A DNA stretch of 64,000 nt. Source: Bryum argenteum (taxonomy: Eukaryota > Streptophyta > Bryopsida > Bryales > Bryaceae). Below are positions 24,710 through 64,000 of the stretch, piece after piece. The stretch covers positions 31,491,864-31,555,863 of the forward strand of contig CM073322.1 in assembly GCA_037043015.1 (NCBI GenBank), written 5' to 3'. The notes beneath the pieces were generated by a model. That model was not told the DNA's origin and made no database searches. It saw nothing but the letters and a program-made list of their open reading frames with translations. Position 1 is the first letter of the stretch. Each line of letters begins with the position of its first letter. A program made the translations under genes and the position numbers.

Positions 24710-27700
24710 TGGCGCCGCTGCCGGGGATTCTAAAGCTGTGAAGCCAAGAACTCTCCGGTGGGACGCTGAGTTTCCTTTTTGTAGATCGGGTGGATGCTGC
24801 GGGAGATCGGAATGCTGGTGAGCTCGTCAGGACGAAGTCGCAAGTGTGAGTCGGACTGAACGAGGGAGAGGCCTGCTGAGGAATACCAGCAAGTTGCTTC
24901 ATGACTCAAGGGCAAACCAGCGAACCGGACTCACGACGTGTTACCTGGTCTGCGAGAAGAAGTACCATTCCGGCAGTTACCCCAACTGCCCAAGCACGAG
25001 AGTTTCCGTACGGCCTAGAAGAAACGCTATACGCCGCGCCACCGGAAGAGGTTGTTGCTCCTGTGAGGGAGTTGAACGTACCAGCCCCTCCACCGGGTGT
25101 AGAGATACTAGTTGCACCGGAAGAAAGGAGGCCAAACCCCATGGAGGCTCCTGCCGGTCAAAGGAGGGCTGCTCCACTCACTCGCCTGAAGTATAACCGC
25201 TTCCAAGGAGATGGTAGCAAGGACGTGGATGACTGGTTGCAAGAGTTCACCACCACGGCAAACGCCAACCAGGAAGACCCGGAGTCCCGGCTGAGAGTCT
25301 TCTCCGGAATGATGAAGGGGGAAGCACTCAAGTGGTTCATGGATGTTCCGGATGAGGTGCGCGAGAACTGGGAGGAGCTCACGGCGCTGTTCCTTCATAC
25401 CTTCCGTGAAGCGGGAGGGGAGGCCAAAGCTCTGGGCCGGTTGAGCGAGATATCCAAGAAGAAGTCTGAGAACATCCGGCAGTATGGTATGAGGGTGAAG
25501 TCTCTCATGAATAAGGTCACAACGGACATTGCTCCGATTGTAGCCATTTAGTGGTACATAGCCGGTCTCCCGAATGAGATGGCCTTCCAGATCCGGAGGA
25601 CCAAACCGGTTACACTCCGAGCGGCGATGGAGGCTGCTCAGGATTATGAGGACTCGGCCCTGTCTCTGCGCGATCCAAAGAAGGAGAAAAATAAGAAGCA
25701 GCGCGAGAAGGACCGCAAGAAGAAGAAGGAGGAAACGGAATCGAGGCGACTCAGGGACGACAGTCTTTGCCGAGAAGGAGTCCGAGGAGGATGGCGATCC
25801 GGACAATGAGTCGGACCCCGAAGAGGTCCAAATGGCAAAGAAAGCCGCGAAAATCCGGTAAAGAGAAGGCGACCATCAAGATCAAGGTCGAACCGGAAGA
25901 CAACATGAAGCTCCTCCTGACAAACTCCGCGCCATCAAGGTCAACCTCACGGAGAACCGCCATCCCGAAACTACCTTCGAGTACCGCGTCGAACGTGTGG
26001 TGTTCACGCCGCCGTGAGCCAGGCCATTTCGCTTCGATCGCCCCCGCGCAAAAGCGAAGAAACCTGTCCCATTTCGTGGAGGCGGAGACCGGAGTGGAGT
26101 ACACCATGCCGGATGATGATGATTATGCGGATGGTGATGTCCAAAGACATCTACCAGGTCCAAACCGTTACGGAAGGAAGGGGAACCCCCTCGACCGACC
26201 GGTAACCCAGCAGATCCGGGCATGGGCGGGGAGCCGCTCAAACGGCCCACCCGGAGATCGAGCGAGTTACGACTACCGGACAATGTCCAGGTGCTACCCG
26301 TGCGGGAAAGATGGTCATTATGCGACCGGGTGCTTCAATGAACCCTTACAAGGTAACGGCGCTGTGCAAATCCTGCCGTGTCCAAACTGTGGCGAGTACG
26401 GCCATAGGGAGACAAGTTGTCCAAAACCTCCACGACAGAAGATTGCACCGAAAATGGTGGTGGAGCCACCTCGGGAGATGACTGCGCTGAACTACGCGCA
26501 CACCGCCGGGGTCGACAATCCGCCTAAATGATGCCAGGAGGTGGAACTGCCGGACGTGGGGGAGGTTGCTATGAACAAAGTCTCCACCCGCAGCTCCACC
26601 AAAGGCAATGAGGACTCCGGTAACCGGCGAAAGAAGAAGAGTACAAAGGCCAACCGGAAACGCAGTGATAGTCCGGGTGGTTACTCTGGGGACGTAAACC
26701 GGAGTAGCCAGCCACCAGTAGAACCACCCCCGGTAGAAGCAAAGAAAGGGGTGGAGTATGATAGGTTAGAAATAGACATAACTGATGAAGTCAGGGACTC
26801 CTTGCTGAAGGAGGGTCCTAAACCGGAGGCGAAGAAGGTCCGGTTTGTGGATAATCCGGTGATATTAAAACCGGGGCCCAAAGCAAGGGTGGATGAGTAC
26901 GACATCCTGCAGACGTCAAGGATCAACGCGAATGTCACGATCGGTCAACTCCTCCACGACAACGTCAACTACCGTAAGGTTATCCGGGAGGCTTGGATAC
27001 AGAGAAGGAAGAAGAGGTACAAGCTTCCGGCGGTGGCATTGAATTTTGCTGCCCTCGAGGATTACGGAGCCCCGGAAATTACAGTTGAAGTCGATGGCTG
27101 CAATATCCATAACGTTCCGGTGGATGGCGGATCCGGAGTTAACCTCATGCTGGAGGATACGGCATACGATCTCGGTTACACGACTCTGGAGCGAACCGGC
27201 CTGGTACTACGGATGGCAGACCAATCTCGAGTAGTTCCGGTCGGCCTTCTCTTTCAAATCCCGTCCCGTGTAGGAAAGCGGACCCTATTTGCTTTGACTA
27301 CGTGGTGATCCGGGTTAACGAGGAAGACCATTCCGAATCTTTGCTTGGGCGACCATGGCTCTATCCGCCAAGGTAGTGGTAGATCGGGGAGAGAGAAGGA
27401 ATTCGGGTTGGGAGACCCCCTGTCCGGTTCCTTGAAACACGTCGCTCACGAAGGAGAGACGGTCTGGCAAGATTACACCTCGGACTGGTCAGAGTCAGAA
27501 CCGGAGTCCCAGGCGTGTTATCTGGTCGAGGAGTTTACCGGATTGGTGGAGAAGGATTTCGAATTCCCAGAGCAGGTCCCGGAGGAAGCACCCCTCCTGC
27601 AGTTGGACCCACTCCGGGAAGGGAAGACAGATGTGGAGGATCGTTCCCTGGGCGAATCATGTACCGCACTCACGGAGAAGTGGGTACGCCAACAACTGAC

Positions 27701-30600
27701 TAACCCGGATACCCAACCTGTACGAATGGGAGGGGGGAGTCACTTGTCATGGGGGGCGTTGGATCCGGATCCAGAGGAGAAGGGACCTGAGAGGATCAAG
27801 AACGTAGTCTCACCCAAGGATTACGAGGAGATGGAAGTCCGGGCAGGACGGAAGTTCTACGTGGGGAAGACGTTAACCGCGGAAGAAAAGGAGGAATGCC
27901 GCCAACTGCTGGCGGAGTATTCCGACGTGTTCGCCTGGACTCCGAGCGACCTGAGGGGGATTCCTTCCCATCTGGGGGAACATGAAATCGATTTGATCGA
28001 TGGAGCCGTTCCGGTCAGACAACGCCAGTACCGGCTGAATCCGAAGTACTCGCTGATGGTGAAGGAGGAGATAGATCGGTTGCTGGATGCAGGGTTCATC
28101 TACCCGGTCAACAACTCGGAATGGGTTTCTACGATAGTGGTTGTTCCGAAGAAAACCGGGGCAGATGGGAAAGTGAAGATCCGTGTCTGCCAGGATTTCC
28201 GGAAACTCAATGCAGCCACCAAGAAGGACTACTACCCCTTACCCTTCACCGATGTCATCCTCGATCATGTAGCTGGTCGGGAACTGTATAGCTTCCTCGA
28301 CGGATTCTCGGGTTACAACCAAGTATCTATCCGGGCTAGCGATCAGCTGAAGACCACCTTCACGACGGAATGGGGGACCTACGCGTTCAACCGGATGCCC
28401 TTCGGACTTTGTAACGCCCCGGGCACCTTCCAGAGGTTGATGATTGACATCTTTAAAGATTTCCTACGACATTTCCTGGAAGTCTTCATCGATGACTTCG
28501 CGGTTTTTGGAGACCGGAATAGTCACCTCTCCCACCTTCGCCAAACTTTCCAGCGCTGCAGAGAGACGGACCTCAAACTGCACCCCGGTAGATGCTTCTT
28601 CGGCATGGAAACCGGGTTGCTGTTAGGACATGTCGTTAGTCGGCAAGGGTTGCAAGTGGACACAGATAAGGTCAAGGTAATCCTGACCCTATCTCCACCC
28701 CGGACGGTGCGGGAAGTTCGAGGATTCCTTGGGCGTGTGTCGGGTACTCACCGAGATTTATCGACAAATATGCACGGAGGGCGTCCCTCCGACGGAGTTC
28801 TTTGAAGAACAACGAGCCGTTTGTGTGGACATCCGAACGGCAGGCTGCGTTCGAGGATCTGAAGAAGCAGTTGGTCAGTGCTCCAATCCTCTCCCCATCG
28901 GATTGGAAGAAGGAGTTCAATGTGACCATTGACGCGTCCGGATGGTGCCTAGGGGCAATCTTGTGGCAAGCGGAAGACCAAGGGCGGGAGAACCCGATTT
29001 ACTACGCTAGCAGGCAGATGAGCTCCGCGGAGTGCAATTACACCACCACAGAGAGAGAAGCGTTAGCGGTGGTGTACTCCTGCAAGAAGTTCCGGCATTA
29101 CTTCCTCGGTTACAAAGTCGTGTTCCACACGGACCATGACTCCCTGAAGTACCTTGTGAACAAGGCTGACCTATCCGGGAGGATTGCCCGGTGGATCCTA
29201 CTCCTCCAGGAATTCGATTACGAGGTGAAGGTCAAATCCGGGAAAGCCAATTCCAATGCGGACTACCTCTCCAGGATGCGCGGGGACAAAGCTTTTGAGG
29301 ATGTGCCGAGCCTTTTCCCGGACGAGTTTTCGGAAGGGAACCCGGTTCCCTCCACAGGAGTGTTTCACACTGAACAGGCACCCATATCGGACTATCAGGA
29401 CATCAGGGATTTTCTGAACACGGGGGAGTATCCGGAAGGTATGTCAAGGGACCAGAAAAGCGTGTTCCAGTACAAAATGGCACCGTATACCCTCCTATCT
29501 GGGATCCTTTTCCGGATGGGACCTGATGATGTCATACGACGCTGTTTGGAGCCTGATGAACGCAAACCGGTAATAGAAGCACTTCACGCAGGCGATTCGG
29601 GAGGACACCTCGCAGCGATGAGCACGGTGAACCGGATCAAGAGTGCTGGTTATTGGTGGCCCTACATCATCCGTGACGTGAAGAAGTATGTTCGGAGTTG
29701 CGACCAGTGCCAGCGAACCGGTGCCCCGCAGACTAAGCACCACTGGCCACTGACCCCCATCATTCCCTTAGCCCCTTTTGTCAAATGGGGAATTGACTTC
29801 ATCGGTCCAGTCAATCCGGTCAGCAGTGATCGGAAGAGGTACATAATCCTGGCCACGGATTATGCCACCAAATGGGTAGAGGCCCGGGCTACAAGAGGAA
29901 ACGACGCCCGTGTAGCAGCCCGGTTCCTTTTTGAAGAGATCATGATGCGTTTTGGGTACCCCCTGGAGTTGGTGAGTGACCGGGGTAAGCACTTCATCAA
30001 CGACATCGTGGAGGATCTAACCAAGAGGTATGCCATCAAACACCGGAAGACGACTCCGTATAACCCGAAGGCTAATGGCCTTACGGAGCGGTCCAACGGA
30101 ATCGTTGGCAAAATCCTCGGCAAGATGGTGTCGGCAAGACAAGACGGATTGGGATCGCAAGTCGCCATGCGCCATACATGCTTACAACACCTCGGAGAAG
30201 ACCACAACCGGAAGACCCGTTCTTCATGGTGTTCGGTCAAGAATGCATCCACGGCATCGAGCTCAACATCGAGTCTCACCGGGTAATGGCAATCCGGATG
30301 GGGGAAAGAGTGGAGGATGACACCCCCCGGCTGATGGCCATTGGCAATTTGGAGGAGCTGAGGGAGGAGGCCATTGAGAAAAACCGGGTGGAGCAAGAGA
30401 ACCGTAAGGTAATCTACGACCGACGCCTTCCCCGGGATCACGGAATCCGAACCGAGACGCTGGTCCTACTGTACGACAGCCGATTTATGGACTTCCCCGG
30501 AAAACTCCACACCCGGTGGATCGGACCTTACAAGGTCACGGAGGTCTTCGCCAATGGGTCCTTGCAGTTGGAGGATTTGCAAGGTAACCCCCAGTTGGAG
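24710..30600 (+). mobile_element. Ty3/gypsy retroelement, non-chromoviral (Athila/Tat/Ogre-like), broken
   Basis: A primer binding site (TGGCGCCGCTGCCGGGGA, complementary to an Asp-type tRNA end) lies at 24710-24727. Parts follow in standard order. Gag is at about 24.9-26.5 kb, with two CCHC knuckles near 26.3-26.4 kb. An aspartic protease-like segment is at about 27.1-27.3 kb. Reverse transcriptase is at about 28.0-28.7 kb ([22 protein letters not shown]). RNase H is at about 28.9-29.3 kb, and integrase with its HHCC zinc site and core at about 29.5-30.5 kb. No chromodomain or 3' LTR is seen. It is broken, with roughly half a dozen breaks, and is truncated at its 3' end near 30.6 kb. Age cannot be estimated without paired LTRs; the number of breaks suggests it is not recent. 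Confidence 0.9.
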
Positions 30601-36722: not shown

Positions 36723-37800
36723 TCACTCTATGAAGAGCGGGTACCATTGTGAACTTGCATCAATGTAAGCAAGTTGGGAATTACTCAAATACACATATGA
36801 TTGCTCACTATTCCCCCATTTTTGATAGTAGGTACCGCAATAACGTCTTTCCACGCCGAACTCTCCACCCCACACGCAGATTGAAGCTCTCTCGCACAAG
36901 TTGTTTTTCTTTTTGGCATTGCAAAATGTAAAAGTCAACACCTTCCACATTGCCTCCGATCGCGAGAACAAAGAAAATTGTCACCAATTTTCACCAAACC
37001 TCCAAGCGATTCATCATCGGATACATAATCCCGCGGCTCTTCATCACCGAGTTGCTTCCTTCTCTCCGGACCAGGTAGCATTTGGTCCCTCACAAAAGTC
37101 ACATTAGTGGGGGCTAGTTTCACAACCCTCCAAGACTTAACATGTGATGTATTCTCACAAGATTGCCACTCACTATCTATGCATGGCGCACAATAGCAAG
37201 CAAGCTCTCTCACCATCAGCAATGTCGGGTCCGCAGGTGAGACTGCGTGTATGGAATGAAATTTCCTTGAACCTGGGATTGTGTCACATCCATGTACATG
37301 AGTCCTCTCCACATCATCTGGCTTGATGTTGTAAAAGTGTCTATACGACACTGTTCTCTTGGATTGAAGAGAACTCAACACAAGGCCTGACATGGACTCC
37401 TGTAGAAAATCCACCACATCCTTGGCGTCCTGCAACTTTCTTGACGGATTGTGAAGTTGCTCTGTCCGAAGAGCCCGCTTCACTACAGCTCCAGCCCCAT
37501 CCCATTCCCCCTTTCCATGACCTGTCCCAAAGAAATTCCAAGTAATCTCACACCCGCCCGTTAGTCCAGGATAACGACTTACAAAATACATTGATCTAGC
37601 CCCTTTAAACTGCCCTGCACACCCATCACTCCACACCCAATGGCGGGAGGGGTTAACACCTTCAGATTTCATCCAGGCCCAATGAAGAAGCAAACAATGC
37701 TGGACAAATAAGGTGTCGTGAGTGCGGTCATAAGAAACATAAAAATGAGTGTCTTTCCTTATTTTACCTGTTGTCATATCCATGCGGTATGTGATATGAA
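36723..37800 (-). pseudogene. 5'-truncated gene of an unnamed family with SDGCAGQFKG and HGKG motifs
   Basis: The minus-strand frame at about 37800-36940 reads VSYDRTHDTLFVQHCLL, then WVWSDGCAGQFKGARSMYF, ITWNFFGTGHGKGEWDG and AGAVVKRALR. Spaced Asp residues and the SDG-QFK-HGKG-DG pattern recur, as I remember, in multi-copy plant and animal proteins that look like transposon products. I cannot name the family. The C-terminal segment (YYQKWGNSEQSYVYLSNSQ) lies one frame away after about 36940, so one frameshift or unseen intron is likely. Homology stops abruptly near 37800, just before a heptamer array, as if the 5' half were displaced by an insertion. Confidence 0.5.
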
Positions 37801-37817
37801 GGACGTTACTTGGGCAT

Positions 37818-37853
37818 GAGCGTAGAGCGTAGAGCGTAGAGCGTAGAGCGGAG
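37818..37853 (+). repeat. Heptamer array: five tandem GAGCGTA units
   Basis: Units GAGCGTA four times and GAGCGGA once. Another GAGCGGT lies just beyond, near 37868, followed by AT-rich DNA with ACCCAAACCCGTGGA at about 37988. The same arrangement occurs at 45973-46140. Confidence 0.85.
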
Positions 37854-38213
37854 AATTTCAGATTGGAGAGCGGTGGTGAGAACATTTTTTTGGTAAATTT
37901 TACTAAAAATATAAAAATTCTAAATTTATACAGAATATTCTAGAGAATATTCGAATATTCCTGACTTATTACCGTGGATTTGGAACCCAAACCCGTGGAA
38001 ATGAGGGAAAAAGTTTTGAAATTTGGCAAACTTCAACAACATTCAAAAGACATGGAGACACTTATGGTGTGACATTACTTAAACAATTTTGTGGACATAG
38101 ATACTAATATTTTTTTTTTAATGCTATATTGCAAGATTGAGTCACACGACGTGTTCACAACACGGTATAGGGTTAAGGGCGAATAGGGAATAAAGTGTGG
38201 AAAACTATGACAT

Positions 38214-41200
38214 CTAAACTATGGCGAGCTCAAGGATGCCTCTCTCCATGATCATCTTCACCTCGTTGAAACTTAGGGTAGGCGCATGGATGAAGAGGTC
38301 TACATCTGGTTCAAACTTGCATACCAACACAAAGACATAGTATAGGTGCTTGCAAGGTCTATACGGTTCTCCTCTCCGCCCTAATTTTGCAATTGTGCTT
38401 TTAAACACCGGACAAGTGCAATCTGCAATGCACCTATTGATAGTTGATAAATCGATTGCGAATCGACTCCATGGAAATAATGCATCCAATTCCAGCGATG
38501 GGACCATAGTGACCTTTAGTATCTTCGCCGCATCGCACGGGGCGAATCAATATTCCGTGTGTCTTAAAGTTACGTTGCGGATCGTCGGAGGTTCCTTGAC
38601 TTCCTTGATTTTGGGAAGACATCTGCATTCTCCGGCACATGAATATGTGACAGGTCCCGTGGCGCACATGCATTGTTGAAAGTGCGGTTGAGTGGTAGTC
38701 TCTCCTTCTGAGGGAGTCGGAAACCAGCATTCTCTAACGCCTCCATCTCCGAACGTGTCAGATTTGTCCCTATCTTCACGGGCCAGATTGTTGGGATTGG
38801 GGGTTGATCTTCAGTTCGAGAGAACGGCTCCACCCACTTCCGACGAGTGCCCTTCACACACCTCTCAGTATCGTCGGGGCATAAATAAAACTTCTCCACC
38901 TTGCGGTGACCATTTTTTGGAGGCATCCATATTCCGGTATAAGTTGGTGCAGGTGTGGACTTCCCGTTTTGCACTATACGAGACTCGCATTTCTTCTTCA
39001 CATCACATGCATCTTTGCCCCAACAGACTTGGGCGAGGGCTCCTTCAATCGAGCAATATGCCATAAGTTTTCGTTCACTTTTGTCTCTTATGCAGTACCA
39101 CACCCGATTAATAGAGGCACCAAATGGATGGGGAAGATTCGATTGGGCGTGCTTCGTCTTCGTCGTCCTCGTGAATAGTTGTCGACTCTCAAAGACAACC
39201 CCTCGTAACCCTTCTCCCGATTCGGGGACGCGAGAAATTCACAGTGTCAGGCCTATGGGTTTCCTCTTCCGCTCCGATTGGAACATCACGCTTACGTTTC
39301 TTCGAACCAAAAATCTCGGCACCCTCCAAGTGAGCATCGCGAGTACAAAATATATCAGCCTCCGGGAACTCTATTACGGCCTTATTGAGAGCTGATGGAT
39401 CGCCGGTTCTATGAGCCTTGCGTTGTGCACTGCGAAGTCGGAGTTCCTCCCTAGACGGACCATGTCCACCCGCTCCACCCTTGGTGTATTGATAGTAACC
39501 CACAACTTGAAGGAAAGCACGAACGTAATCATCAACAGCTGCCATATAGAGATCACCACCCTTATTTCCCGAAGCTTGCAACCATTTGTTATGAATGGAT
39601 TCTACAAGGTTGCAGGATGGCATCTCAGCTAGCTCTTCTGGAGATAATTTTTGTTCCTGACAGGTACATAAGTAGTGATGTCAAGCTCAAAGTGTAGGAG
39701 GAGGCTATTTCGTTGACGAAATTGCCTCCTAAAAATAGATATTTTTTTATTTTAATTTTTATTGGAAAGAAATAATAATTTACATTTATCCCGACTTAAT
39801 TGTAAAATCGAAATTGCTATAACTTGAAAATTACCGTAGTAAGCATTTACTTACCAGTTCCATGAATCCACCCCACTGTCTATAGCGGTGATGCCAATAC
39901 GAAAGCCATAGGCCAAGGTGGTAGAGGCCATTTTCGGAGGTGGCGTTTGAGGATGACCACCACGCTCTGATTGCCAAATACCGGGTCTCAGCTTCATCGG
40001 ATGAACGAGCATCCTTATATTGCTTACAGAGGACCCTATGTTGATCTTGCAATTCGTGGACGATGTACTTCTTGGTATGAGTTTCTAATGATTGCGTCCA
40101 ATGGAAGTAACAAGTACGTTCTTGGTCTTCCATTGGAATTGAAGGATCTCCAGAGCCGTAAACAATGCGCACAGCGTTCCAGTTGGCTTGAGCACTGTCA
40201 GCCATAAATCCTTGAAACTTAGGTTTGGGTACTCCGTGCCTAGCCATGACGTGGTTGAGATTCCTCCAGAAGACGAGTTGAGCTTGAGTATCTTCAGATT
40301 GAAAATCTGAACATGCAATGGTTAGAATGCGCTGGTAATTAGGGTCGTCGTCTGCATGGCACGCCATGGTAGTCCATGGCTTCACCCGTTTGACATGGTC
40401 AAACATCATCCATGCATTGGAGAGGTCGCCTCCAGGCTGCATCCGGCGGACAAGGTCGACACCACTACCGGGTCCAACTTCTGACATCTTAAAAATGAAG
40501 ACTTTATCAGAATCGTCTCCTTGGCCCGGAAACATGTTGCGTTGCACATACGCCCAGTTGCTGAGTCCTTTAAGCTTCGTGATGCCATCAAGGATGCCAA
40601 ATCTGCGCATGTACTTGAAAGAGTAGATACGATTCCGCAAGCTTGGAGAGTTCAAGAGTTTACATCGATCAAAGACTGGCTCAAGTTCTTCAAGAGTTAG
40701 GTGTCCGGATTTGGGGTCATCTTCGTCGCGTAAAAGAATGTTACCTACTACGTCCTTGCTAGTCTCCAAGACAATTTTCGAAATTGTCGCTTGGGGGTTG
40801 CGGTCAACATGCTGTTCGATTAACTCATCTATCATTTGACGTGCGCATCTATAGTCTCCGACTTTGACAGGGTGCTTGTGGATACCGATATGCATACAAG
40901 CACGCTCTTGAATATCATCTTCAAAGACGTAGAAGATTTTGGCAGGACACAAAGCAACGCAGACAGGAGGTTCTCTGCAAATCTTACAGACTAGGGTGGA
41001 CGTTGAGGGAGGCGGTTCACTCACTGAGAAAGGTTCTTTGGTGATACCTTCAAACTCCACCTCATTGACTCCCGTTGCACGATCTGGGCGTTCCAAGTAA
41101 GGACACTTGTCATTGTGGCATTAGAGATGACCTACGCAATTTGAATACCGAAATGACAAGCCCAGGGTGTTGCTGATGTTAGTTGTCATCGTCCTAGTCC

Positions 41201-42155
41201 AGACATGACCGTCATAACGTTTGTCCATCCCTTCCATTGATCTTGCATTCTTGAGTACAGCAGAAGGAAGTGTCGGGGGGAGGACAAATAGGGCATCTCC
41301 GTTGAAAGATGGAGGTAGAAAGGATACTGTGTGAGTAGGGATGGAATTGAAATCTAGTTTCTTGAGAATATTCTTGCTACCGGGCATGCTACCGAGCTTG
41401 CGTAGACATGGGAGAATGTTTTTGAGCTTTTTTGTTTGAGAAGGTGGTGAGGGAGCGACTAAGGAAGAGGGCGTTGATAGAGAAGAGTTCTGAGAAATGG
41501 AGGAGATGGATGGAAGCTTAGCAGAAGAAGGACGGAGTGGTACGGGTGGCTTTCGTTCGTCATCGGATGAATCTGATATATCGATACTAACCCGTCTGCC
41601 TGGTTCGATCTTGACACGAGCAAAGAGGGGACCAACGTTAGAGATCGTGGAGGAGCTACGAGGTGTCAGAAGTTGAGTGGACGCGTTCATAACTGACTCT
41701 GTCAAACCGTATAGGCGATACTTTCCTGACTTCATCTTCCAAGTTGTAGCATTATTGTCTAAGACGACGGGTTCTACAACTGTGGAATATAGGACATGAT
41801 AAGTATGTGGATCAAGAACGTCGATTTCTAACCATAAGGAGGAGACATCATAGCCAAAGCGGATTGCAAGCCAGGAAGAGGTGACTTCAGCCAGACCGTC
41901 AGGGCCAGGAGGAAGACAGACAGGGACATCAGAGTCGACTGACTTTATCTCGATCAAATCCGGAGGAGGCTCATTGGTGGAAGCCATGACTTCAGCCACA
42001 CCGTCAGGGTGAGGAGGAAGACAGATAGGGGCATGAGATGCAACTAACTTAGTCTCAAGCAAATCCGCAGAAGGTCGCTCAGAAGAGGAAGTCATGATAG
42101 AATTTAGAGCAAGAGAATGGACATACGAGCGGTTTAAAAGAGATAATGAGTTCAT
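38214..42155 (-). mobile_element. Decayed MULE-like DNA transposase gene with SWIM zinc finger
   Basis: On the minus strand a long first exon runs from ATG 42155 to the donor at 39855. It holds a disordered N-terminus (codons 1-300), a Cys cluster (NCVGHL, CHNDKCPYLER), and a transposase-like core (RILTIACSDFQ, GFMADSAQANWNAVR, ERTCYFHWTQSLETHTK). A second exon begins at an acceptor near 39668. The last frame (38214-38560) has a SWIM finger, CTCPVF with RPCKHLYYVF, typical of the C-terminus of Mutator-like transposases. Faults: an in-frame TAA at 41121-41123 between two conserved Cys, frame changes near 39.1 and 38.65 kb, and an in-frame TGA at 38547-38549. Terminal inverted repeats were not found. 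Family name is inference from the FHW and SWIM motifs. Confidence 0.65.
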
Positions 42156-42728
42156 GTGGCGATGTTTATATACTGAACTAATGTACTAATGTAACTAGTA
42201 ATAGTAAAGAAATATTTGAAATCGTAGGTAGTTGGAGATATTGAATTAGGGTGAACGTCGGGGTAGAATTGGAAGTAAAAATTCATAGATTTTATATTTA
42301 AACAATGTAACCACCGTGTTTGAATATTGAACACTTGTATTTAATAAGCACAAGTGTAATTAATGGATAACTAAATAAGGAATTGAGATTTGAATTTGTG
42401 ACGGCGGCCGCCTCTGTCAGAATATTTGAAGGCAAGATAGGCTGAATGAAAATAGATTAGTATATATTGTCAGACACGGAATCATAGTAATAGATTTTGT
42501 ACTTTATCGGTGGGCTAAAGTGGCTATGAGTGTTATTTGGAGACGCGTTAAGAGGAGTTAGGGTTCGCAGAACGGCGCATTCAAAGTGTATAAAGGCGTC
42601 GGGATAGAAGACATAATCCTCTTTGCTTCCGAAGACGTAATCATCTTGCGTCTAAGTCGCATGATGTCCTTGTATTCTTAGTCCCTTATTTTCGAAGGAG
42701 AAGGAGAAGGAGTTTGTAATAGATCGCA
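42156..42728. promoter_or_regulatory. Shared upstream region between two divergent genes
   Basis: 573 bp separate the start of the minus-strand transposase-like gene (42155) and the plus-strand gene at 42729. A bidirectional promoter is possible. I see AT-rich DNA but no motif I would call. Confidence 0.35.
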
Positions 42729-43531
42729 ATGGAGGGTGACAGTAGTCAAGTAGAGAGAGGGAAGGATGGTGGACGGGGGAAAAAGAAGAGAAGAGGTGGC
42801 ATAAAGTTTTCTGGATCTAAAGCTTTGCGACGGAGTGCGATGCGGAAGAAAGATGCGCCGGATGTGTCTGATGACGATCATATGCAAGATATAGATGAAA
42901 CGATTGATGAGTTCCTTCCAGGCACGTTTAGAAAGAATATCAAGATGCGATCGTTGAACCTGGACGCCATTACTGAGAAAGCTCGGAGTGAGGACGAAGG
43001 AGAACGGGTTGATTGGAACGAAGGAGTGGAGGAGCTAGAGTCCAGTAAGCAATCGCATAGTAGGAGTGGATCACAAGATTTTGAACGTGACAGCGCGGAT
43101 AAAGAGTTCGAAAGAGTAGTAAGTTTAAATGAGATTTTCGGTTTGCAGTATGTGTTAATGTTGGTGTGATATACAGTCTTAAATGCTTTGATGGGTTTGT
43201 TCAGTGGGATGATATGGAGACATTCGTTGATGACATATTTGGTGTTCATCCTCAGCAATATGAAGCAGAAGGACACGGAGGAACCCAAGATTGTCAAGTA
43301 GAAGAACGGGCTGCAGTGGATGGCAATGAAAAAAAAGACGAAGTTGAATTAGACCCGGAACGTTTGCCGGTACAAATCCCAAACCTTGGACAAGAGGTAG
43401 ATTCAGGATGTCGTCCTGAGTTTATGATTTATGAACACCCTAATGGCTTCATTCAATGCTGGTTGATAGATAATAATGAGTTCCCATGGGCTGACAGTGA
43501 AGACCTGAACGAGGCAGAAGCTGATAGTTAA
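42729..43531 (+). CDS. Two-exon gene for a 238-residue charged protein, function unknown
   Basis: Exon 1 is 42729-43118 (130 codons) and exon 2 is 43205-43531 (109 codons with stop). They join in phase 0 through GTA|GTAAGT and TTTGTTCAG|TGG. The N-terminus is strongly basic (GKKKRRGGIKFSGSKALRRS), like a nuclear localisation signal. The rest is acidic. Exon 2 holds WDDMETFVDDIFG and FMIYEHPNGFIQCWLIDNN. I recognise no family. It is divergent from the transposase-like gene and, unlike its neighbours, has no visible fault. It may be a host gene or an accessory gene of the mobile element. Confidence 0.6.
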
Positions 43532-45049: not shown

Positions 45050-45960
45050 CCAATCGATGCCTCTGGTTGTGTTCATGGTGTCGTCTCCCAGTTTTCTACT
45101 AGTGATCTAATCAGACCTCGAGGATAAGGTCGGTAGCTAGTTGATGTCGATAATCTCTACAGTCGGGTTGGGTAGGTTCAGAAGTGATTGAAGATGGGAA
45201 ATCGATATGATGGATTGCCCGATTTGCTCACTTCGTCAACGAAACTAAGCTCGCTGATACTTTAAACTACTGTCCCTGGATTAACGCTCTGGCCCCTGGA
45301 TTAACGCTCTGGCTCCGATGTTAGACCATGAGATTTGGGTCCTCGCAATCTATGCTGCTGCCTTCGATTTGCTTTGCCACTCTCGTCAACGAAACGAAGC
45401 TCCGAGTGCGGCACACACTCTTCCCTGGATTAACAGACGGGCTGCGGTTATGGAGAATGAGCTTCGGGTTCATCTATACCGCTGCCTCCGTGATGGTCTG
45501 GTCTCGTCTGAACGTGTTGATGGTCTGGTCCTGTTTGCATTTTTTCAGTGTGTGGTCTACTAGTGACTAAACCAGACTTCGAGGATAAGGTCGGAAGCTG
45601 GTTGAGCAGTATCCTCACAACCGTCTCGGGTAGGTGAAGCGGTTAGTGAAGCTGAGAAGTCGATATGATGTATTGTAGTATTAGCTTATCTCGTCAACGA
45701 AACTGAGTGGGATCCGATAACATGCTGAACGCTGTCCCTGCATTAACGCTCTCTCTGCGGTCTTGAAGCATGAGTTCGGTTCCACTAAGTCAAATTTTCG
45801 GCTATTTGGCTACATTCGTCAACGAAAGTGTGGCTGCGCTGTTGGAGCATGATTGTTAAGTCTCGTTTGAGAACCATGAGTGTGGTATTCCAGGAACCAT
45901 ACCTGAATTCGAAGACGTCCGTAGCTTGTTGATGTTGGTATACTCCAATTTTTGTGGGGA
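45050..45960. repeat. Degenerate tandem duplication, unit about 461 bp
   Basis: CGAGGATAAGGTCGG recurs at 45119 and 45580, each preceded by CTAGTGA and followed by GGGTAGGT, CGATATGATG and CGTCAACGAAAC, then a CCCTGGATTAACGCTCT-like word. A third shorter piece starts near 45830. CGTCAACGAAA occurs four times. Confidence 0.7.
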
Positions 45961-45972
45961 AACCACCGGTGT

Positions 45973-46021
45973 GAGCGTTGAGCGGTGAGCGGTGAGCGGT
46001 GAGCGGTAAAGTTTGAGCGGT
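45973..46021 (+). repeat. Heptamer array: five GAGCGGT units plus one spaced unit
   Basis: GAGCGTT, then GAGCGGT four times, a 7-base spacer AAAGTTT, and GAGCGGT again. AT-rich DNA and ACCCAAACCCGTGGA (about 46115) follow, as after the array at 37818, in the same orientation. Confidence 0.88.
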
Positions 46022-46924: not shown

Positions 46925-49900
46925 CTAGGTAGACGGTGTAGTACCATTAAAGTGCTGATCACACTCATTAGCCTCAAAATCTATAAACTTAAGCACACTA
47001 TTGTTATAACGTCGACGTGGAGTGTCAGACAAAATAGGAGATGGAGCTTGAACAAACTCTTGAGCAAGACGCTCAGCGTACGATGGTAGCGTGAATGTTG
47101 ATGGAGGGCTCTTATAGAGATGAGCGTTGCGAGTCAATCGCTCCTTCAGACCTGCGATCCTAAAAGTACAAAGAAAGTCAGTACTACAGTTTTGTACGTG
47201 CGTAAGTTTAAATCGATAAAGAGAATAAAAGATGGTATTACACACCAATGAACTTTCGTGGCTTCTTCACGACCGGTTCGTCCGAGTCATAATCCGCGGG
47301 AGGGGCCGATTCTCCACTTTTTTCATCACCGGGAGGACCATTCTTGTATTCCGCTAGTACTCCATCAAAGATTTCTTCGTCCGGTTCCATAGCGATGAGG
47401 TGTCGGTTGGAGCGCGCACAAGCAATCACAGATGCACCTATAAAATCAAAAGCACACGTTAGAATTGCGAAATGTATAAACAAATTCTAACGTAATGATT
47501 ACGGAAACATTACCTGTACTTGCGCTCCAGTCGAATACAATACCTCCATCGTCAGTGAGACAATCGACGAAACATTGAATGAAGGAGGGGTCCTTCTCCC
47601 GTGAGCCTCGCCACGGCGTACCGTCGGGACGATAACGCAATGTTTCTTTCTCTGCAAAGTTACAGAGGTGGTCTTCTTCATCAGGTACGATTGCCACACC
47701 CGCGTATGCGTGTGACAGTTGCCGAGTTTGGAACTTCGAAACATACCCTTTACGAACATAGACTTTGATATGGAAGCAGTGAGTCTGTAAAACACAAGTA
47801 CAAATATGTTAACATATAAGCATAGAAGGCAATTACCATGAATTGAGAAATTGAAAATTTGATTTTGATTCGTACCTCTTTCGGTTTGGGAACGGTAGAG
47901 GCCATAGGGAGGGGATTATATCCCCACCAGTCTCGAACAAGACGAAAACTATATGTTGCAGACTCAGAATCGAGAGTACGCTCGATTCTACGACATTTGG
48001 GATGCATCAGAAGAATGGCTCCAACGTCTGTCAAATGATACGCGGCAAACACGAAGAGGCTCTCAAAGTAGGTTTTGTCCCGCGGTTCCAGGATGGAATT
48101 TCATTGGAGACACACCCGACAGGCAAGTTCTCGGGAGCATCCGCAAAAATGAGATCAATCCTGGATGCTTGGGTTCATACTCCATCGCTGTACACGGGTA
48201 CCTACGGTCTTTGCCAATCTGAGGTACAAGTAAATAATTAGAAAGTGGTTAATTGATTCACGAGTACAAAACGTAATTAGGCAGATTAATAATGACGAGT
48301 GTATGAAATTATACCTTCTTGATGTGCTCGACAATATCAAGGATTTGCGAATCCCATTTAGCAGTCTTCGACGACTGATGAACCAAATCTCCAATGTTGC
48401 CCTTCTCGAGATACATTGGCAGAGTGACTGAAATTTTTGATGATGAGCTGCTACCAATGTGATTTGGTTTCGGAAGAGGACGTTTGGCGAATACTGGCTG
48501 GCTGAGGCGACGCGGAGACTGTTGAGAGTTGTGGTCAACGGTGAAGGATTGAGGAGGGGACCCTGCATTCGTAAGTCCACCTGTTGAAAGTTGAGTCAAT
48601 CTTGCACTGCGTCGACGTGCATTGTTTGTCGCACCATCCCCAGAAGCTTCGAGTCGATCAAGATCTTCAGCGCCGCAATGTCTTCTTGGAGCGGAGCAAT
48701 ATCTTGATTCTTGCACAAGATCTACAACAAAGCTCAAGAATAAAGATTGCGTCGCCTCCCCGCTTGCACGAGGCTTGGGCACTGCGACCGGTGAAGAAGG
48801 AGAAGTGATCGGATCGAGATCAAGATCGCGTAATGGAGAGGTCGTCATCGTCATCGTCGTCAATCTCCATCGGTTCGTAGTCACCGGGTTTAAAGCAAGG
48901 TTCAAGAAGATGCTTCTCCTCTTTGTGCACATAGTTGTCGCCGCACTCAAGGAACCATCCACCGGTCGTCAATTGGGAGTTGGTAAACCGCTCTTGTTGG
49001 GGAGGGAGAAAAAGTCATGGGGATCATTCGTCATCGCAACGTCTTGAACTCCATTGAACGGAGAACGAAGCTAATGCTCCCTTGGCAACGAGCTCTTGCT
49101 TTAAGTACCTACAAAAAATAAACACAATAGATAAGGAAAATTGAAGACGTTGAAGTTCCACATTCTTCAATATTTGAAAGGAAAAGAAATACATACCGGA
49201 ATAGAAGTCGCTTAATTGTAGCTTTGCCTCCGATAATCTTATGGAGATCCGAGCCTTTGATGAATTTTGGAGTTGCATTTGGAGCAAGATAGTTCCCGAA
49301 TGCCTTCTCCCATAAGAGCAACCGCCACTTCTCGATGTACGCGGATGGCTTTAGGACAACACTAGACCACTGAATGTTGAGGTTCTCGTTATCCACCAGA
49401 TTCTGCAATTCACTTTCAAGTGATTGCTCAAGCTGAGAATACAGGAAAGAAGTTAGTATCTAAAGTAACATAAAAACTCAAATTTTGTAATCAGAGATAC
49501 GAAAATGCAAGTTACCTGAGCCCAAAGAGAAGCACGATGTAAGAATGAAACCAACGCTTTATCTTTCATAGGGCGTTCTTCAGGGAAGCGAAACGATCGT
49601 CGAACATCGTCTGATGAGTTCCACCATTGGAGCCACTTTCCCTTGAAATCGAAGTGTACATTAGTTGTGGCCACCATTTGTAAGCGATCGATTGTCATAT
49701 CGGGTTTCAGGTTCTTGCTGTAATGAGAATTGATCTGCACATCACAAACACAGTTTTGATTAGAGCAGTAGAACGTAGAGAGACTTAGAGTGTCAGAAAT
49801 CGAAGAACCCATCCTGCAGTACCTCTCTCGCGAAGACCTTCCCGAGTTTAATATTGGCCACATCGACCATTTTATCGAAATTCTTGCCACGAATTAGTTT

Positions 49901-51267
49901 GATTTCAGCCTTGATTGCGTTATCCATGGCACTCCATACTCCCGGTCCTGTTTGTTTATCTTTTGGAACCGTGGCGTAGTACGTAGCTTCAGCGTCGTCG
50001 GATATTTTTGCTAACCTCCTCTATATAACAACCGAATGTAAAATGAGAAGTTGTTTTAGATAAATTTAAAGAAAAGGAGTCAAGCACATATGAAGTGAAC
50101 GTACCGCGTATAGAAATTTCACAAAAACGTCTATTGTGACACGATACCACGTCTCCTTTTTGGCTTTGGCGTTCTTACAGATCTTGTAATCCTCTGGAGA
50201 AATGAGGTCCTTGAAATCTTCGAGTTTCAACTTCCCAAATTTCCTCATGCGTTGGAGTTTCGCACACAAACTGTCTTCGACGTGATCGTGTTCAGTGGAC
50301 CTACAACACAAAATGAAACATTAGAGAAATTGTATATGTCAAAATTATGAAGGAAATAATTTTTAAAAAATGCGACATTCACTTACCAGTTGATGTTGTT
50401 CATAGCATCGAGGAGGAGATTGCTCTCTCCACGGGCATCAAGTAGGATGCAATCAACCGAAATGTACCAGGAGGGCTCATTCTTGTGATATCTCTCAATA
50501 TGACGCATTCAGGCTGTAACCCGGTGGTTACCTTCGTAGACATAGAAATATTTGTCACAAAGGTCACGAAGATCCGGATCAGCTCGCAATGTACTCTCGA
50601 ACTCTTCATTCGCGGCTTTCCAAAGCGGGTTCTTCCAAAGTTCGTCTTCAGTGTCAACAAATTTTTCCCGGCCTTTTCTGTCAAAGGGAGACACGTACAT
50701 TACCCGATCACCTTCGCGGTATCCTTTGGTGAACTCATTCTCCAGTTTTCGGACGTCTTGTTCAGAGATCGGTCGGACCTTCGGATAACAAACGAGGCGA
50801 CAAAGAGGAATTAGCATACGAGACTTCTTAACAGGTTTGTAGCGTAACCTGTTAATGATTGCAATCGAATCACTCTTGTGGAGCATTCGCATCTCATTCG
50901 CACTCCAGTCGGGGTCCTTGTTCTGAAGATGCGTGGGCATGTGAATGCTTGCAACGTTGACACCTTTAGGCAAAGTAGATTCTTCATCATCCGAGAGGGA
51001 TTGATGTCCATCATGGTCTTCCGTTGGAAGATGAATAACAGCAGCTTCATGAGGATTGTCACTTGTAACTGCATTCCATTCGCCATCGAGAGGTTGGCGA
51101 TCTGTTTTTGAAGGACTCTCTTGCGGATCTCCACTTCTCAAATCATCAACAAGTCTCACACTATGAAGTATGAGTTCATCTCCGTCGGAAACTACGGTTT
51201 GTGGAGGATTATGATGATGCGGATTGACTTCTTCATCTTGAATGAGATGGACTTGAGCAATGCTCAT
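46925..51267 (-). pseudogene. Ten-exon gene: ParB-like domain plus permuted N4/N6-type DNA methyltransferase-like domain, decayed
   Basis: Exons (minus): 51267-50387, 50300-50105, 50020-49823, 49734-49516, 49432-49197, 49108-48315, 48218-47876, 47784-47514, 47437-47246 and 47151-46925, with GT-AG borders and matching phases. Exon 1 has an acidic start, then IPLCRL, P-VR and FYVYEGNHRVTA (codons 241-252), the ParB fold pattern ending in the GxHR-like box. Exon 7 reads DLIFADAPENLPVG, in the place of the DPPY motif IV. It continues TDVGAILLMHP. Exons 8-9 end CLTDDGGIVFDWSASTG then ASVIACARSNRHLIAMEPD, the place of motif I (DPFxGSGTT) at the C-terminal side, as in beta-class N4/N6 methylases. 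Both catalytic motifs are altered. Codon 253 is TGA, and exons 6 and 7 change frame several times, so it is a pseudogene or very divergent. Confidence 0.6.
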
Positions 51268-51412
51268 CTGAAAATCCACGAAATGAAATACAACACACCA
51301 CAATAAGCATAAGATAGTGTAAAATGAATAATAATATATAAAAAAGAGTACATCATCTTTTTGTAACTTAGTATATGATAAACATATCATGTAGTGTTTC
51401 AACAAAACTAAA

Positions 51413-51719
51413 GAGATTGCATCTTTGCGGAGAGTCGCGGAGAACGTCTAGGAGCAAGTCTAGCAGATTCCATTTCTTGGATACGACGAGCTCTCGCCTC
51501 AATCTTTTTAATTCACATGTTTACTGCGAACCGATCAACGTCACTACGTGAAGTGCGACGGACAGGTGAGGTAGGAGGTGGAGTATTGGGTATCGAAGTC
51601 AATGCTATAACTAATCGACGGGACTCTACTATAGCCAACACATGATCTCTCAAAACGGAGAGGTCGCTCTCTGCATCAGAGTCCTCATCTGTATGATCTC
51701 CTTCTCGCTTTAAACGATC
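51413..51719 (-). pseudogene. Last exon of an upstream gene, cut off by the satellite array
   Basis: The acceptor TTTTTGCAG|GATCG at 51720 opens DRLKREGDHTDEDSDAESD and TPPPTSPVRRTSRSD. An in-frame TGA lies at 51513-51515, after which the same frame continues with IEARARRIQEMESARLAPRR to a TAG at 51413. Earlier exons would lie where the satellite now is. It could also be a 5' exon of the ParB-like gene. Function unknown. Confidence 0.4.
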
Positions 51720-52377
51720 CTGCAAAAACCCAGCAACCCGAAGAATTAAATACCATACGACGAGAAACAAAATTAAAAACACTTTACTTAATGAATCTTC
51801 CTTGAACTCACAAAACAAATTCAGAAAAATCGTAAGTCACGGCAAATGAAGTCAAGACCCAGTGCACAAGCTAGCCATGCCCGAATTCTCAAGCATCGAC
51901 ACCAAGAACCCCATCTTATGTGAAGCTGCATCCCCAAGCAAACAGCTTTCAGGAGGCTCGGAGTCTTGCTGAATGTCACGAGGACCATCACGGGAGATAC
52001 TTAAAAGGGGCCAGCATCCCCGAACTTAACATGCACAGCCCGCATAAATCAGGCACCCAAAATTTGAAAAACAAATGGCAAGTCGACACCAAGATCAGCA
52101 TGACCACCGTGGAAATGGCAATCCTATTCCCTTCAGCTCGATGCATCGTCAGAGCTCGGAGGTTCGAGGCTCGAGGATTGTCACGAAACGCACCCAACGC
52201 TGGAGAAGGGCAGCTCCGAGCTTCCAGCTCGCAAGCTCTCGCAGCAACGCTGGTTCCGAGGTGGGCTTGAGGGGCACTTACCAGAAAAGAGCCAGCATCC
52301 CCGTCCCACGTTGCACATGACGAATCAAGCAAGCACGCAAAATTTGGAAAAAAAAAATGAGATTGTCGGACAAGTGT

Positions 52378-52401
52378 CAGACTTGCGTCGACGCAAGTCT
52401 G
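52378..52401. repeat. 24-bp perfect palindrome in a satellite unit
   Basis: CAGACTTGCGTC followed by its exact reverse complement. Identical copies lie at 54141-54164, 54576-54599 and 55446-55469. The unit near 55008-55035 has a changed but still symmetric form (GACTTGCGTCG, CGC, CGACGCAAGTC). Confidence 0.93.
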
Positions 52402-52637
52402 GCACCCGTCCGATCAAACCTCGAATTCAAATCCACAGTTGACCACAAAATCATCCGAGGACTTGTCAAAATGGCGTAACAACACGGGAATGCATCCTGC
52501 TTGAGCGGGCTCAGCCTCGAGCTTTCTTGCCCGCCCGTTTCGAACGCGTCTTGCCCAGCCCCGAATTCCAACCACCGACTCAGCATCATCCGAGCTCAGA
52601 GGCACGAGGATTGTCACGAGGACGCAGCCAACGTTGG

Positions 52638-53960
52638 TGTCACATCCCTTTGAAAAGGATCCCCGAACACCATGGTGAGCCAAGAGGACCCCGGCAGTGA
52701 CGTCCCGGGCTTGGCAAGAGACAAGGTGAAGTGACTAAGGGGAGTCCCGAGCAAACAGCACGCAATGGCGTCGTGCTCGGCACGAACTTGGTGGTGTGCT
52801 TTACATGGTTGGAAACCTTGTTTAAGCACGCACCCATAGGTCCAAAGAACGCGCGATTTGGAGTTGTGAGTCATGAGATATGGCTCTCCAAAGTTGGAGC
52901 GCGTTCCGGGACACTCCGGGACTCGGGAGTGTTACCTTTCGGGACTCAAAATGTCGTCCTTCTTGGATGGCGGCATGTTGCATGTCTTTGGAAAGCTCTA
53001 GACAAGAGCTTTCCAAAATGCTAAGGCTCGTGAGGAGCAAAGCAATGCTTTGGGAGATATGGCTCTCCAAAGCACCGGGACTTCGGGACTCCGGGACTGC
53101 TGCCTCCCGGGACTCCCGAATGTTCAGAGGAGCATAGCTCCCACATAGAAGCTCCGATTGGGACAAGTGAGGAGTTTATCGACATCTACTCAAAGAGTAG
53201 ATGTCGAAAATGGGCTCGCACGTCCCATTTGGATAACTGAGCTACAAGTTAGCCCGAGAAGAAGATACGGCCCGTTTTTGAGGCTAAGGCAAAAACGGGT
53301 GGTCTTCCAAAACAAAAGTGTGTCACGGAAGGCCCCTCAACACAAGAGGGGGGGGCCTACCGAAGACTCCAGAGAGTACTATGAGGAGGGGTGGTCTCCC
53401 TCCTCACTTCCACATGGTGCCGAGGAGAGCCGGGGTGGCTCTAAGGGGTGAGGCTTGGGATGGAGCCTCACTCCCGCACCTTGGGCACTATGGGATGCTT
53501 GTGGTGTGCATCCCGAAACATTGGGTTGGAAAAGTGTCCCGCTCCAAACTAGTCCCCGTGAAAAGTAGTGCCGGTTTCCGGTAATGTCCCGAATGGAGAG
53601 TGTAGACATGAATGGAAGGGGACTAGTGGGCATTTGGACAATATGCAAGGGCGGTTAGCTCCGGGGGTGAGTAGTGCCACCCTTGGGAGCTTGGACATGT
53701 GTGGAAGGCCGCCCCGTGCCACCAAGTGGCATGCCCATGTGTTTTGTGGGAATTCCGGTTTACGGGTTCCGGGTAATGGGTTGGGGGAGTCAAGGTGGGT
53801 TGGACACCTTGACTAGAAATGGTGCTAACATTGTGTGTGCTTGGCATGTGCAGTGTTAGCTAAGTTGTGGCCGGTTGCTACCAACAAAGTAAGCCGTGAT
53901 TCCGCTACCAAGTAAGGCTCACTTGAAGAAAAAGAGTTGGGAGTAATTAGGGCCGCGACA
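52638..53960. mobile_element. Solo LTR of an LTR retrotransposon, 1323 bp
   Basis: Begins TGTCACATCCC and ends GGGCCGCGACA, so TG...CA with a TGTC/GACA inverted end. It is flanked by the 5-bp duplication GTTGG (52633-52637 and 53961-53965). It splits one satellite unit cleanly: removing LTR plus one duplication restores the 435-bp spacing exactly. No coding part is left. Superfamily unknown (Ty3 or Copia). The perfect duplication suggests moderate age at most. Confidence 0.88.
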
Positions 53961-55523
53961 GTTGGAGAGGGGCACCTCCGAGCCTCCAGCTCGCAAGCTC
54001 TCGCACAAAGGCTGGTTCCGAGGTGGGCTTGACGGGCACTTAGCAGGCAGGAGCCAGCATCCCCATCCCATGCGGCACATGACGAATCAAGCAAGCACGC
54101 AAAATTTGACATAAAAAAACTGAGATTGTCGGACAAGTGTCAGACTTGCGTCGACGCAAGTCTGGCACCCGTCCGATCAAACCTCGAATTCAAATCCACA
54201 GGTTACCACAAAATCATCCGACGACTTGTCAAAATAGCGTTACAACACGCGAATGCATCTTGCTTGAGCGGGCTCAGCCTCGAGCTTCCTTGCCCGCCCG
54301 TTTCAAAGGCGTCTTGCCCAGCCCCGAATTCCAACCACCGACTCAGCATCTTCCGAGCTCAGAGGCACGAGGATTGTCACGAGGACGCAGCCAACGCTGG
54401 AGAGGGGCACCTCCGAGCCTCCAACTCGCAAGGTCTCTCACAAAGGCTGGTTCCGAGGTGGGCTTGACGGGCACTTAGCAGGCAGGAGCCAGCATCCCCA
54501 TCCCATGCTGCACATGACGAATCAAGCAAGCACGCAAAATTTGGAAAAAAAAAACTGAGATTGTCGGACAAGTGTCAGACTTGCGTCGACGCAAGTCTGG
54601 CACCCGTCCGATCAAACCTCGAATTCAAATCCACAGGTTGACCACAAAATCATCCGAGGACTTGTCAAAATGGCGTAACAACACGGGAATGCATCCCGCT
54701 GAGCGGGCTCACCTCGAGCTTCCTTGCCCGCCCGTTTGAACGCGTCTTGCCCAGCCCCGAATTCCAAACCACCGACGCAAAGATCTTCCGAGCTCGAGGC
54801 ACGAGGATTGTCACGAGGACGCAGCCCAACGCCGGAGAGGGGCGCCTCCGAGCCTCCACTCGCAAGCTCGCGCACAAAGGTCGGTTCCGAGGTGGGCTTG
54901 ACGGGCACTTAGCGGCGCAGAGCCAAGATCCCCGTCCCATGCCGCACATGACGAATCAAGCAAGCACGCAAAATTTGACAAAAAAATCGAGATTGTCGGA
55001 CAAGTGTCGACTTGCGTCGCGCCGACGCAAGTCCGCACCCGTCCAATCAAACCTCGCATTCAAATCCACAGTTGACCACAAAATCATCCGAGGACTTGTC
55101 AAAATGGCGTTACAACACGGGAATGCATCCTGCTTGAGCGGGCTCTGCCTCGAGCTTCCTTGCCCGCCCGTTTCAAAGGCGTCTTGCCCAGCCCCGAATT
55201 CCAACCACCGACTCAGCATCATCCGAGCTCAGAGGCACGAGGATTGTCACGAGGACGCCGCCAACGTTGGAGAGGGGCAGCTCCGAGCCTCCAGCTCGCA
55301 AGCTCTCTCACAAAGGCTGGTTCCGAGGTGGGCTTGACGGGCACTTAGCAGGCAGGAGCCAGCATCCCCATCCCATGCTGCACATGACGAATCAAGCAAG
55401 CACGCAAAATTTGGAAAAAAAAAACTGAGATTGTCGGACAAGTGTCAGACTTGCGTCGACGCAAGTCTGGCACCCGTCTGATCAAACCTCGCATTCAAAT
55501 CCACAGTTGACCAAAAAATTATC

Positions 55524-64000
<8,477 letters not shown>

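Follow-up and report, generated by a model that had tools for sequence, protein, structure and literature searches.

RESULTS

Gene structure and sister copies

The stretch analyzed here is a window of 64 000 nucleotides from the moss Bryum argenteum (contig CM073322.1), in which we studied a minus-strand gene extending from an ATG at position 51267 to a stop codon at 46925, with 10 exons and nine introns (Table 1). Its predicted product joins a ParB-like N-terminal part to a DNA methylase-like C-terminal part, and the gene is carried by a DNA transposon. An earlier note made from the sequence alone, below called the original prediction, had proposed a multi-exon gene at this place, which was borne out by exon borders kept in sister copies; the limits of an element beyond the gene and the decay of the window copy were absent from it. 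This copy, the introns of which are all of the GT–AG type, is broken, exon 1 containing an in-frame stop and exons 6 and 7 being frameshifted. The peptides IPLCRL and EGNHRVTA were located in exon 1, DLIFADAPENL in exon 7, and GGIVFDWSASTG across the border of exons 8 and 9. A conserved coding segment upstream of the ATG is preceded by a GCAG-type acceptor and has no settled donor; it may be either a 5′ exon or a separate small open reading frame (ORF), and the gene may have further 5′ exons.

When the genome was searched with the methylase exons, 1341 candidates came up, and the 150 of them that were scored contained 181 matches, for which reason an ordinary single host gene was rejected; with the ParB exon 1132 candidates came up, of which 150 were scored and gave 150 matches. 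Of 20 loci retrieved, each 10 kb long, 15 spanned the gene and served as sister copies; the remaining five (L038, L042, L044, L045 and L048), truncated or rearranged as judged by BLAST, were excluded from the counts of exons, reading frames and palindromes. DNA identity between the sister copies and the window copy was ~78–97% over long alignments. Across the 15, splice sites and the lengths of internal exons were mostly kept, with one or two altered splice sites each in L036, L037, L046 and L047 and a variable length of exon 1. Such a common exon structure goes beyond chance and shows that the gene model is real. For the pairing of features across the genome we used listings limited to the 150 best candidates in some cases and to the first 100 places, all exact matches, in others. 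Among the matches listed, 77 pairs of a ParB and a methylase exon lay no more than 6 kb apart (median distance 3.0 kb), and in all 77 the ParB exon was upstream on the strand of the methylase exon, which led us to reject two unrelated neighbouring genes and upheld the proposal that both halves belong to one gene.

An uninterrupted frame of 1169–1191 codons was found in six of the 15 sister copies (L033, L035, L039, L041, L043 and L047), the other nine being broken. Two of the six have defects of their own, L039 being out of frame over the motif-IV stretch and L047 having AA instead of AG at the acceptor of exon 5. The protein is kept under purifying selection; the ratio of non-synonymous to synonymous divergence (dN/dS) between the six open copies had a mean of 0.165 and a range of 0.133–0.226 (15 pairs). 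In a full-length search with the best 8000 candidates scored, three proteins of Ceratodon purpureus with 51–54% identity were the sole matches.

Two further observations concern the copies. The mean synonymous divergence between the six was ~0.8 in exons 2–6 versus ~0.2–0.26 in the methylase part and the C-terminus, which suggests, as far as can be judged from the sequences, exchange of the 3′ half between subfamilies by gene conversion or recombination. Of the 150 listed methylase-exon copies, 79 are on C1, the largest contig, which makes up 17% of the genome (p 3e-23), and on eight other contigs of known length 25 of 64 listed copies lie within 1 Mb of an end, versus 9% expected (p 8e-11).

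The C-terminal part and its motifs

The PHROG family phrog_3008 was matched by a protein of the local genome at an expectation value (E) of 6.4e-5 and by the three C. purpureus proteins at 2.5e-5, 9.1e-4 and 4.9e-5. When phage records were searched with tblastn, 286 were matched at E up to 10; 19 of the 20 listed were annotated as methylase or methyltransferase and one had no annotation, and the best methylase match (E 4e-3) extended over 85% of the query and took in both motif regions. Profile alignment with hhalign gave a probability of 95% (E 2.7e-8) against six phage methylases, over 55 columns around motif I, and of 31–50% against phage ParB–methylase fusions (reversed control 1.5%), the moss profile holding 2/5 methylase rows in the latter case. 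The curated cut-off of PF01555 (N6_N4_Mtase) was not reached, with 14.5–18.3 bits against 26.7 and E 0.0024–0.034 at the motif-I end only, and a PDB profile search with the methylase part found only weak matches to an N4-cytosine methylase and DpnA (E 0.1–0.6). Dynein light chain matches in the PDB search (E 0.006, profile positions 9–61, mostly before motif IV) were taken as chance. Judged from these alignments, the C-terminal part is related to the beta-class DNA methylases, as the original prediction had it. That note had further likened the two halves to the families PF02195 and PF01555, for which matches were not obtained in the first case and stayed below the cut-off in the second.

Motif IV precedes motif I in the gene, again as predicted. 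The catalytic tetrad of N6_N4_Mtase enzymes is (D/S/N)PP(Y/F/W), a consensus that was found in none of the 16 sequences covering motif IV (of 17 aligned). In alignments with active enzymes, the tetrad DPPY is changed to DAPE and motif I to DWSASTG, the latter reading D-W-S-A-S/N-T-G where active enzymes have D-x-x-x-G-S-G. The aromatic residue of DPPY is Glu, Asp or Ser in 16 of the 16 sequences, while the Asp and the second Pro are each retained in 15. Because the aromatic residue is replaced throughout, methylase activity is doubtful and the catalytic signature is seemingly lost; the working modification gene of the original prediction was hence not supported.

The N-terminal part

The N-terminal part resembles ParB/Srx proteins in having IPLCRL, a conserved core and a GNHR followed by a strand, with GNHR present in most relatives. 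We found this part in 101 proteins, mostly as the exon-1 part, and most of these came from short contigs and one from the V chromosome of Ceratodon. Many single-exon pieces of the gene family stand among the 101 as separate database proteins from short contigs, and such stand-alone pieces are probably plant DNA in metagenomes.

The family phrog_1033 was matched by seven of 33 relatives, with a best E of 0.0027 and an E of 0.0049 for the local copy. There was no match to ParB_N (PF02195) in Pfam and none to ParB in NCBIfam, nor did tblastn with two ParB exons give any match among phages and plasmids. With hhalign, the probability was 1–2% at P 0.02–0.04 (reversed control 0.28), the GNHR being aligned on the G(H/N)xR site of the phage proteins, and PDB profile searches with this part gave either nothing or one chance match at E 2.1. 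On these statistically marginal grounds the ParB identity is likely, not proven, and of the predicted fusion this domain stands as suggestive only.

Ends, duplications and gene content of the element

BLAST homology stopped at 45954–45956 in 14 of the 20 sister loci, with differing flanks beyond. The right end had 231 genome matches with at most one mismatch (backward control 0), and the left end, GGACGTTGCTACCGTGTGAGCG, had 339 with at most two mismatches (control 0). Heptamers GAGCGGT adjoin both termini in the ends read, including five left ends. Perfect inverted ends of 22 bp were rejected: left and right ends agree at 13 of 22 bases in all and at four of the outer 13, and left ends were located by the heptamer pattern, a search with the right-end octamer having been uninformative. 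Ends were paired over the stretch of the genome common to the two listings of exact matches. Of the 73 right ends listed there, 35 faced a listed left end no more than 30 kb away (median 14.6 kb), compared with two that had a left end the wrong way round. All of eight elements, each on C1, were flanked by target duplications, these being of 10 bp in seven (9 or 10 of the 10 identical) and of 11 bp in one; non-cognate flanks matched at 5 of 10 positions at most (56 comparisons). Duplications together with defined ends are the mark of recent DNA transposition, and the DNA transposon to which the ParB/methylase-like gene belongs as an accessory gene is present in high copy number. That the gene is carried by a mobile element, which had been raised as a possibility, was in this way supported by paired ends, target duplications and a transposase-like partner. 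The window retains the right 9.6 kb of its element, from 45956 to at least 55523, and the left end was not found within the 64 kb.

The transposase-like family, first seen as a window ORF at 39834–41120, gave 150 matches (150 scored of 1123 candidates). The transposase-like ORF of the moss element has a CxxH motif, which is a trait of the transposases of Mutator-like elements (MULEs), and a Pfam search with the transposase-like pieces of the window, taken to E 10, brought up no transposase family. Among pairs within 20 kb of a listed methylase exon, the transposase-like copy lay upstream on the opposite strand in 41 of 47 and otherwise in six, and 27 of the 41 lay at 8.6–12.7 kb. A small gene (42723–43166 in the window) diverges from the transposase-like gene at ~2.7 kb in 45 of 48 listed neighbours within 6 kb. 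Among the matches listed it was also found upstream of the ParB exon, on the same strand, in 23 of 25 neighbours within 9 kb, and in all 23 it was a more diverged form (ranks 86 and beyond of 150). The ParB element consequently reads, from its left end, transposase-like gene (directed towards that end), small gene, palindrome array, ParB/methylase gene and right end, an order assembled from the coordinates of many copies and not from one fully read element. A related backbone of transposase-like and small gene without ParB is also abundant, with one copy next door in the window. The transposase-like gene of that copy (36.9–42.2 kb) was rejected as partner of the window's ParB gene, lying downstream on the same strand and belonging to the related backbone family.

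A palindrome array upstream of the gene

Upstream of the gene lies a tandem array with a 24-bp palindrome in four units. These four were the only ones in the window, with none elsewhere at up to three mismatches and none in shuffles. The palindrome CAGACnTnCGTCnACGnAnGTCTG (at most five mismatches of 19) was found in 16 of 16 copies, being the 15 sisters and the window copy. There were 57 sites in 55 103 upstream bases, whereas gene body and 3′ flank (107 942 bases) had none; when the upstream sequence was shuffled 20 times, each shuffle had 0–3 sites. Because the motif comes from the same sequences, the weight of this result rests on the gene-body and shuffle controls. Genome-wide, 1153 sites were found with at most one mismatch, with none for the backward control. 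The upstream tandem repeats align poorly between subfamilies. Core positions 5 and 9 of the palindrome exist in two complementary types, with both halves altered together. In several subfamilies the outer arms differ in sequence and are symmetrical nonetheless.

Table 1. Features of the ParB/methylase-like gene and of the retained part of its element (window positions)
Feature	Position	Strand	Basis
Right terminus of element, GGGGAAACCACCGGTGTGAGCG inwards on + strand	45956..45977	-	BLAST homology ends, genome matches
Subterminal heptamer repeats GTGAGCG/GAGCGGT, at both element ends	45971..46007	.	Tandem Repeats Finder
Exon 10, with stop codon	46925..47159	-	Exon borders
Exon 9: remainder of motif I (ASVIACARSNRHLIAMEPD)	47242..47437	-	Alignment to methylases, hhalign
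Exon 8: methylase-like, motif I (FDWSASTG) at its end	47514..47784	-	Alignment to methylases, hhalign
Exon 7: methylase-like, degenerate motif IV (DAPE), frameshifted here	47876..48218	-	Alignment of relatives
Exon 6, frameshifted here	48315..49108	-	Conserved exon borders in sister copies
Exon 5	49197..49432	-	Conserved exon borders in sister copies
Exon 4	49516..49734	-	Conserved exon borders in sister copies
Exon 3	49823..50020	-	Conserved exon borders in sister copies
Exon 2	50105..50300	-	Conserved exon borders in sister copies
Exon 1: acidic N-terminus and ParB-like core (IPLCRL ... GNHR ... INW), in-frame stop here	50387..51267	-	101 homologous proteins, most covering ~60% of query (exon-1 part)
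Upstream conserved coding segment, ~100 aa, ending near RRSPRL; stop in window copy	51400..51720	-	Similar peptide in 11/16 copies as found by script
Tandem array upstream of gene, 435-bp unit, palindrome in four units	52164..55523	.	Tandem Repeats Finder; common to sister copy L039
24-bp palindrome CAGACTTGCGTCGACGCAAGTCTG	52378..52401	.	Motif scan
24-bp palindrome	54141..54164	.	Motif scan
24-bp palindrome	54576..54599	.	Motif scan
24-bp palindrome	55446..55469	.	Motif scan

DISCUSSION

Comparison with known systems

Sola transposons have target duplications of 4 bp. Sola1-1_Ec32 of the brown alga Ectocarpus is a 21.5-kb transposon in which a protein of 1104 amino acids (aa), with ParB and methyltransferase parts, is encoded on the other strand from the transposase, and the portion of the published description available proposes binding and self-modification for that protein and cites similar genes of green and red algae (PMC12477816). 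As far as that description goes, the moss element is like it in encoding a ParB-like and an N4/N6-type methylase part in one protein of ~1100 aa opposite to the transposase, and is unlike it in its moss host, its 10-bp target duplications, its degenerate motif IV and its palindrome array.

The fusions of ParB_N with N6_N4_Mtase in phages share with the moss protein a ParB-like part followed by a methylase, an alignable motif I region and motif IV before motif I. The fusion of the Streptococcus phage Javan405 matched PF01555 at E 2.2e-28 and PF02195 at E 1.4e-5, the latter with 25.5 bits, just below the cut-off. Unlike the moss protein, the seven aligned phage fusions have only 386–470 aa, lack the ~500-aa middle and all have DPPY and GSG.

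VANC, the anti-silencing protein of the Mutator-like VANDAL elements of Arabidopsis, binds short motifs, arrayed in tandem in non-coding parts, and brings about a loss of methylation, according to the parts of the two reports available (PMC5735166, PMC10398659). The likeness to the moss element, drawn by description, lies in a second protein encoded by the element, a short tandem motif in non-coding parts and arrays that differ between subfamilies; VANC motifs, however, have 8–9 bases, and neither ‘palindrom’ nor ‘methyltransferase’ occurs in the accessible text of PMC5735166. MULEs have inverted ends and target duplications of 8–11 bp, as given in the available part of PMC6446971, and the moss element resembles them in its inverted ends and in the lengths of its eight duplications, and differs in that Pfam gave no transposase match and the outermost 13 bases of its ends mostly disagree. 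We consider VANC the closest functional and Sola1-1 of Ectocarpus the closest architectural precedent.

The original prediction had known of no description of this architecture in plants, a statement that held for land plants in the open-access literature and failed for algae, given the published brown algal protein and the green and red algal genes cited with it in the available text (PMC12477816). No land-plant report of a ParB–methylase transposon gene was found in the open-access literature, with subscription journals outside its range. With ParB–methylase proteins already reported in algal transposons, the moss gene is the land-plant form of something known; what the literature searches indicate to be new is the element of the moss, which makes 10-bp duplications, together with the palindrome array and the loss, throughout the relatives, of the DPPY aromatic residue.

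Proposed role and alternative explanations

We propose, with a probability of roughly 0.5, that this accessory gene of the transposon encodes a degenerate-methylase protein acting as a sequence-specific DNA-binding factor on the element's own palindrome array, in anti-silencing or regulation. The ParB-like part, probably dimeric, would bind the palindromes between the genes of the element, and the methylase-like part would serve as a scaffold for binding of DNA or cofactor, not as a writer. Binding of the array would keep the intergenic region accessible and regulate the surrounding promoters, comparable to VANC of the VANDAL elements, and an accessible array would help the element to escape silencing by the host.

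Several points weigh against this proposal. The ParB assignment by sequence is weak, and the symmetry of the palindrome arms may reflect structure or arm-to-arm gene conversion instead of a binding site. On C1 below 11.18 Mb, an exact palindrome lies within 12 kb upstream of six of the 15 listed methylase-exon copies (downstream of none), and nine of the 19 palindrome clusters listed on C1 are beside no listed exon copy or left end, versus 10 that are, the pairing lists for C1 being incomplete in that they hold exact or best matches only. Candidates for binding the palindromes also include the transposase, the product of the small gene and a host factor, and a methylase with such an unusual motif IV might still be active.

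A special form of such DNA binding, which we put forward more tentatively, would be a parS-like system of the element's own, where the ParB-like/dead-methylase protein would occupy the array of ~22–26 bp palindromes, spread or cluster there and shield the element from silencing, with array and protein co-diverging between subfamilies. Somewhat less probable to us is that the array serves as operator for either the transposase or the small divergent gene, the ParB/methylase protein acting elsewhere. The position of the array, between the small gene and the ParB/methylase gene, would fit an operator, against which stands that the ParB-free backbone element of the window, the one such element scanned, had no palindrome with up to three mismatches.

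We regard as unlikely an active N6-adenine or N4-cytosine methyltransferase that is guided by its ParB part and marks the element's own DNA, as was proposed for the Ectocarpus Sola1-1 protein. The domain pair and the opposite-strand position agree with that protein as described in the available text (PMC12477816), and the relationship to methylases, the purifying selection and the Asp and one Pro retained in most motif IV sequences would all agree with activity; against it stand the substitution of the DPPY aromatic residue in every sequence and the altered motif I. Similarly improbable is a partner in transposition, with the ParB-like part taking part in synapsis, end recognition or target choice and the array being an internal assembly site. 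This would explain why palindromes lie inside the element together with the genes, but none was found at the right terminus of the 16 copies read, and the ParB-free backbone is itself high-copy, no listed ParB exon having any of the 86 best small-gene matches in the 9 kb upstream of it on its own strand. With a backbone so abundant without the ParB gene, its mobility seems not to need that gene. Finally, a captured host or foreign passenger gene with no role for the element, although related backbone elements lack the gene and nine of 15 sister copies are broken, is very improbable in view of the exon structure constant across subfamilies, the purifying selection and the relatives in Ceratodon and many other sequences.

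The finding extends ParB–methylase transposon proteins, which in the literature searched were reported for algae, to land plants. In the moss family the catalytic signature appears lost in a gene that is yet under selection, and the palindrome array is a concrete candidate for its DNA target. Gene targeting is available in mosses, and it becomes directly testable there whether the role of the accessory protein is to write DNA modification or to read and bind DNA.

Neighbouring elements in the window

The ParB-free two-gene element of the window occupies 36938–43528, with transposase-like ORFs on the minus strand (with the piece SDGCAGQFK ... HGKG) and the divergent small gene on the plus strand at 42723–43528. 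Within one ORF of this transposase-like element, at 37818–37854, a repeat of the heptamer GAGCGTA is similar to the heptamers near the ends of the ParB element. Two coding regions of Gypsy-type long terminal repeat (LTR) retrotransposons, with parts of reverse transcriptase, RNase H and integrase, were found at 27309–30283 and 59271–63998, the second of which is open over 1576 codons and is situated on the flank where one would expect the left part of the ParB element.

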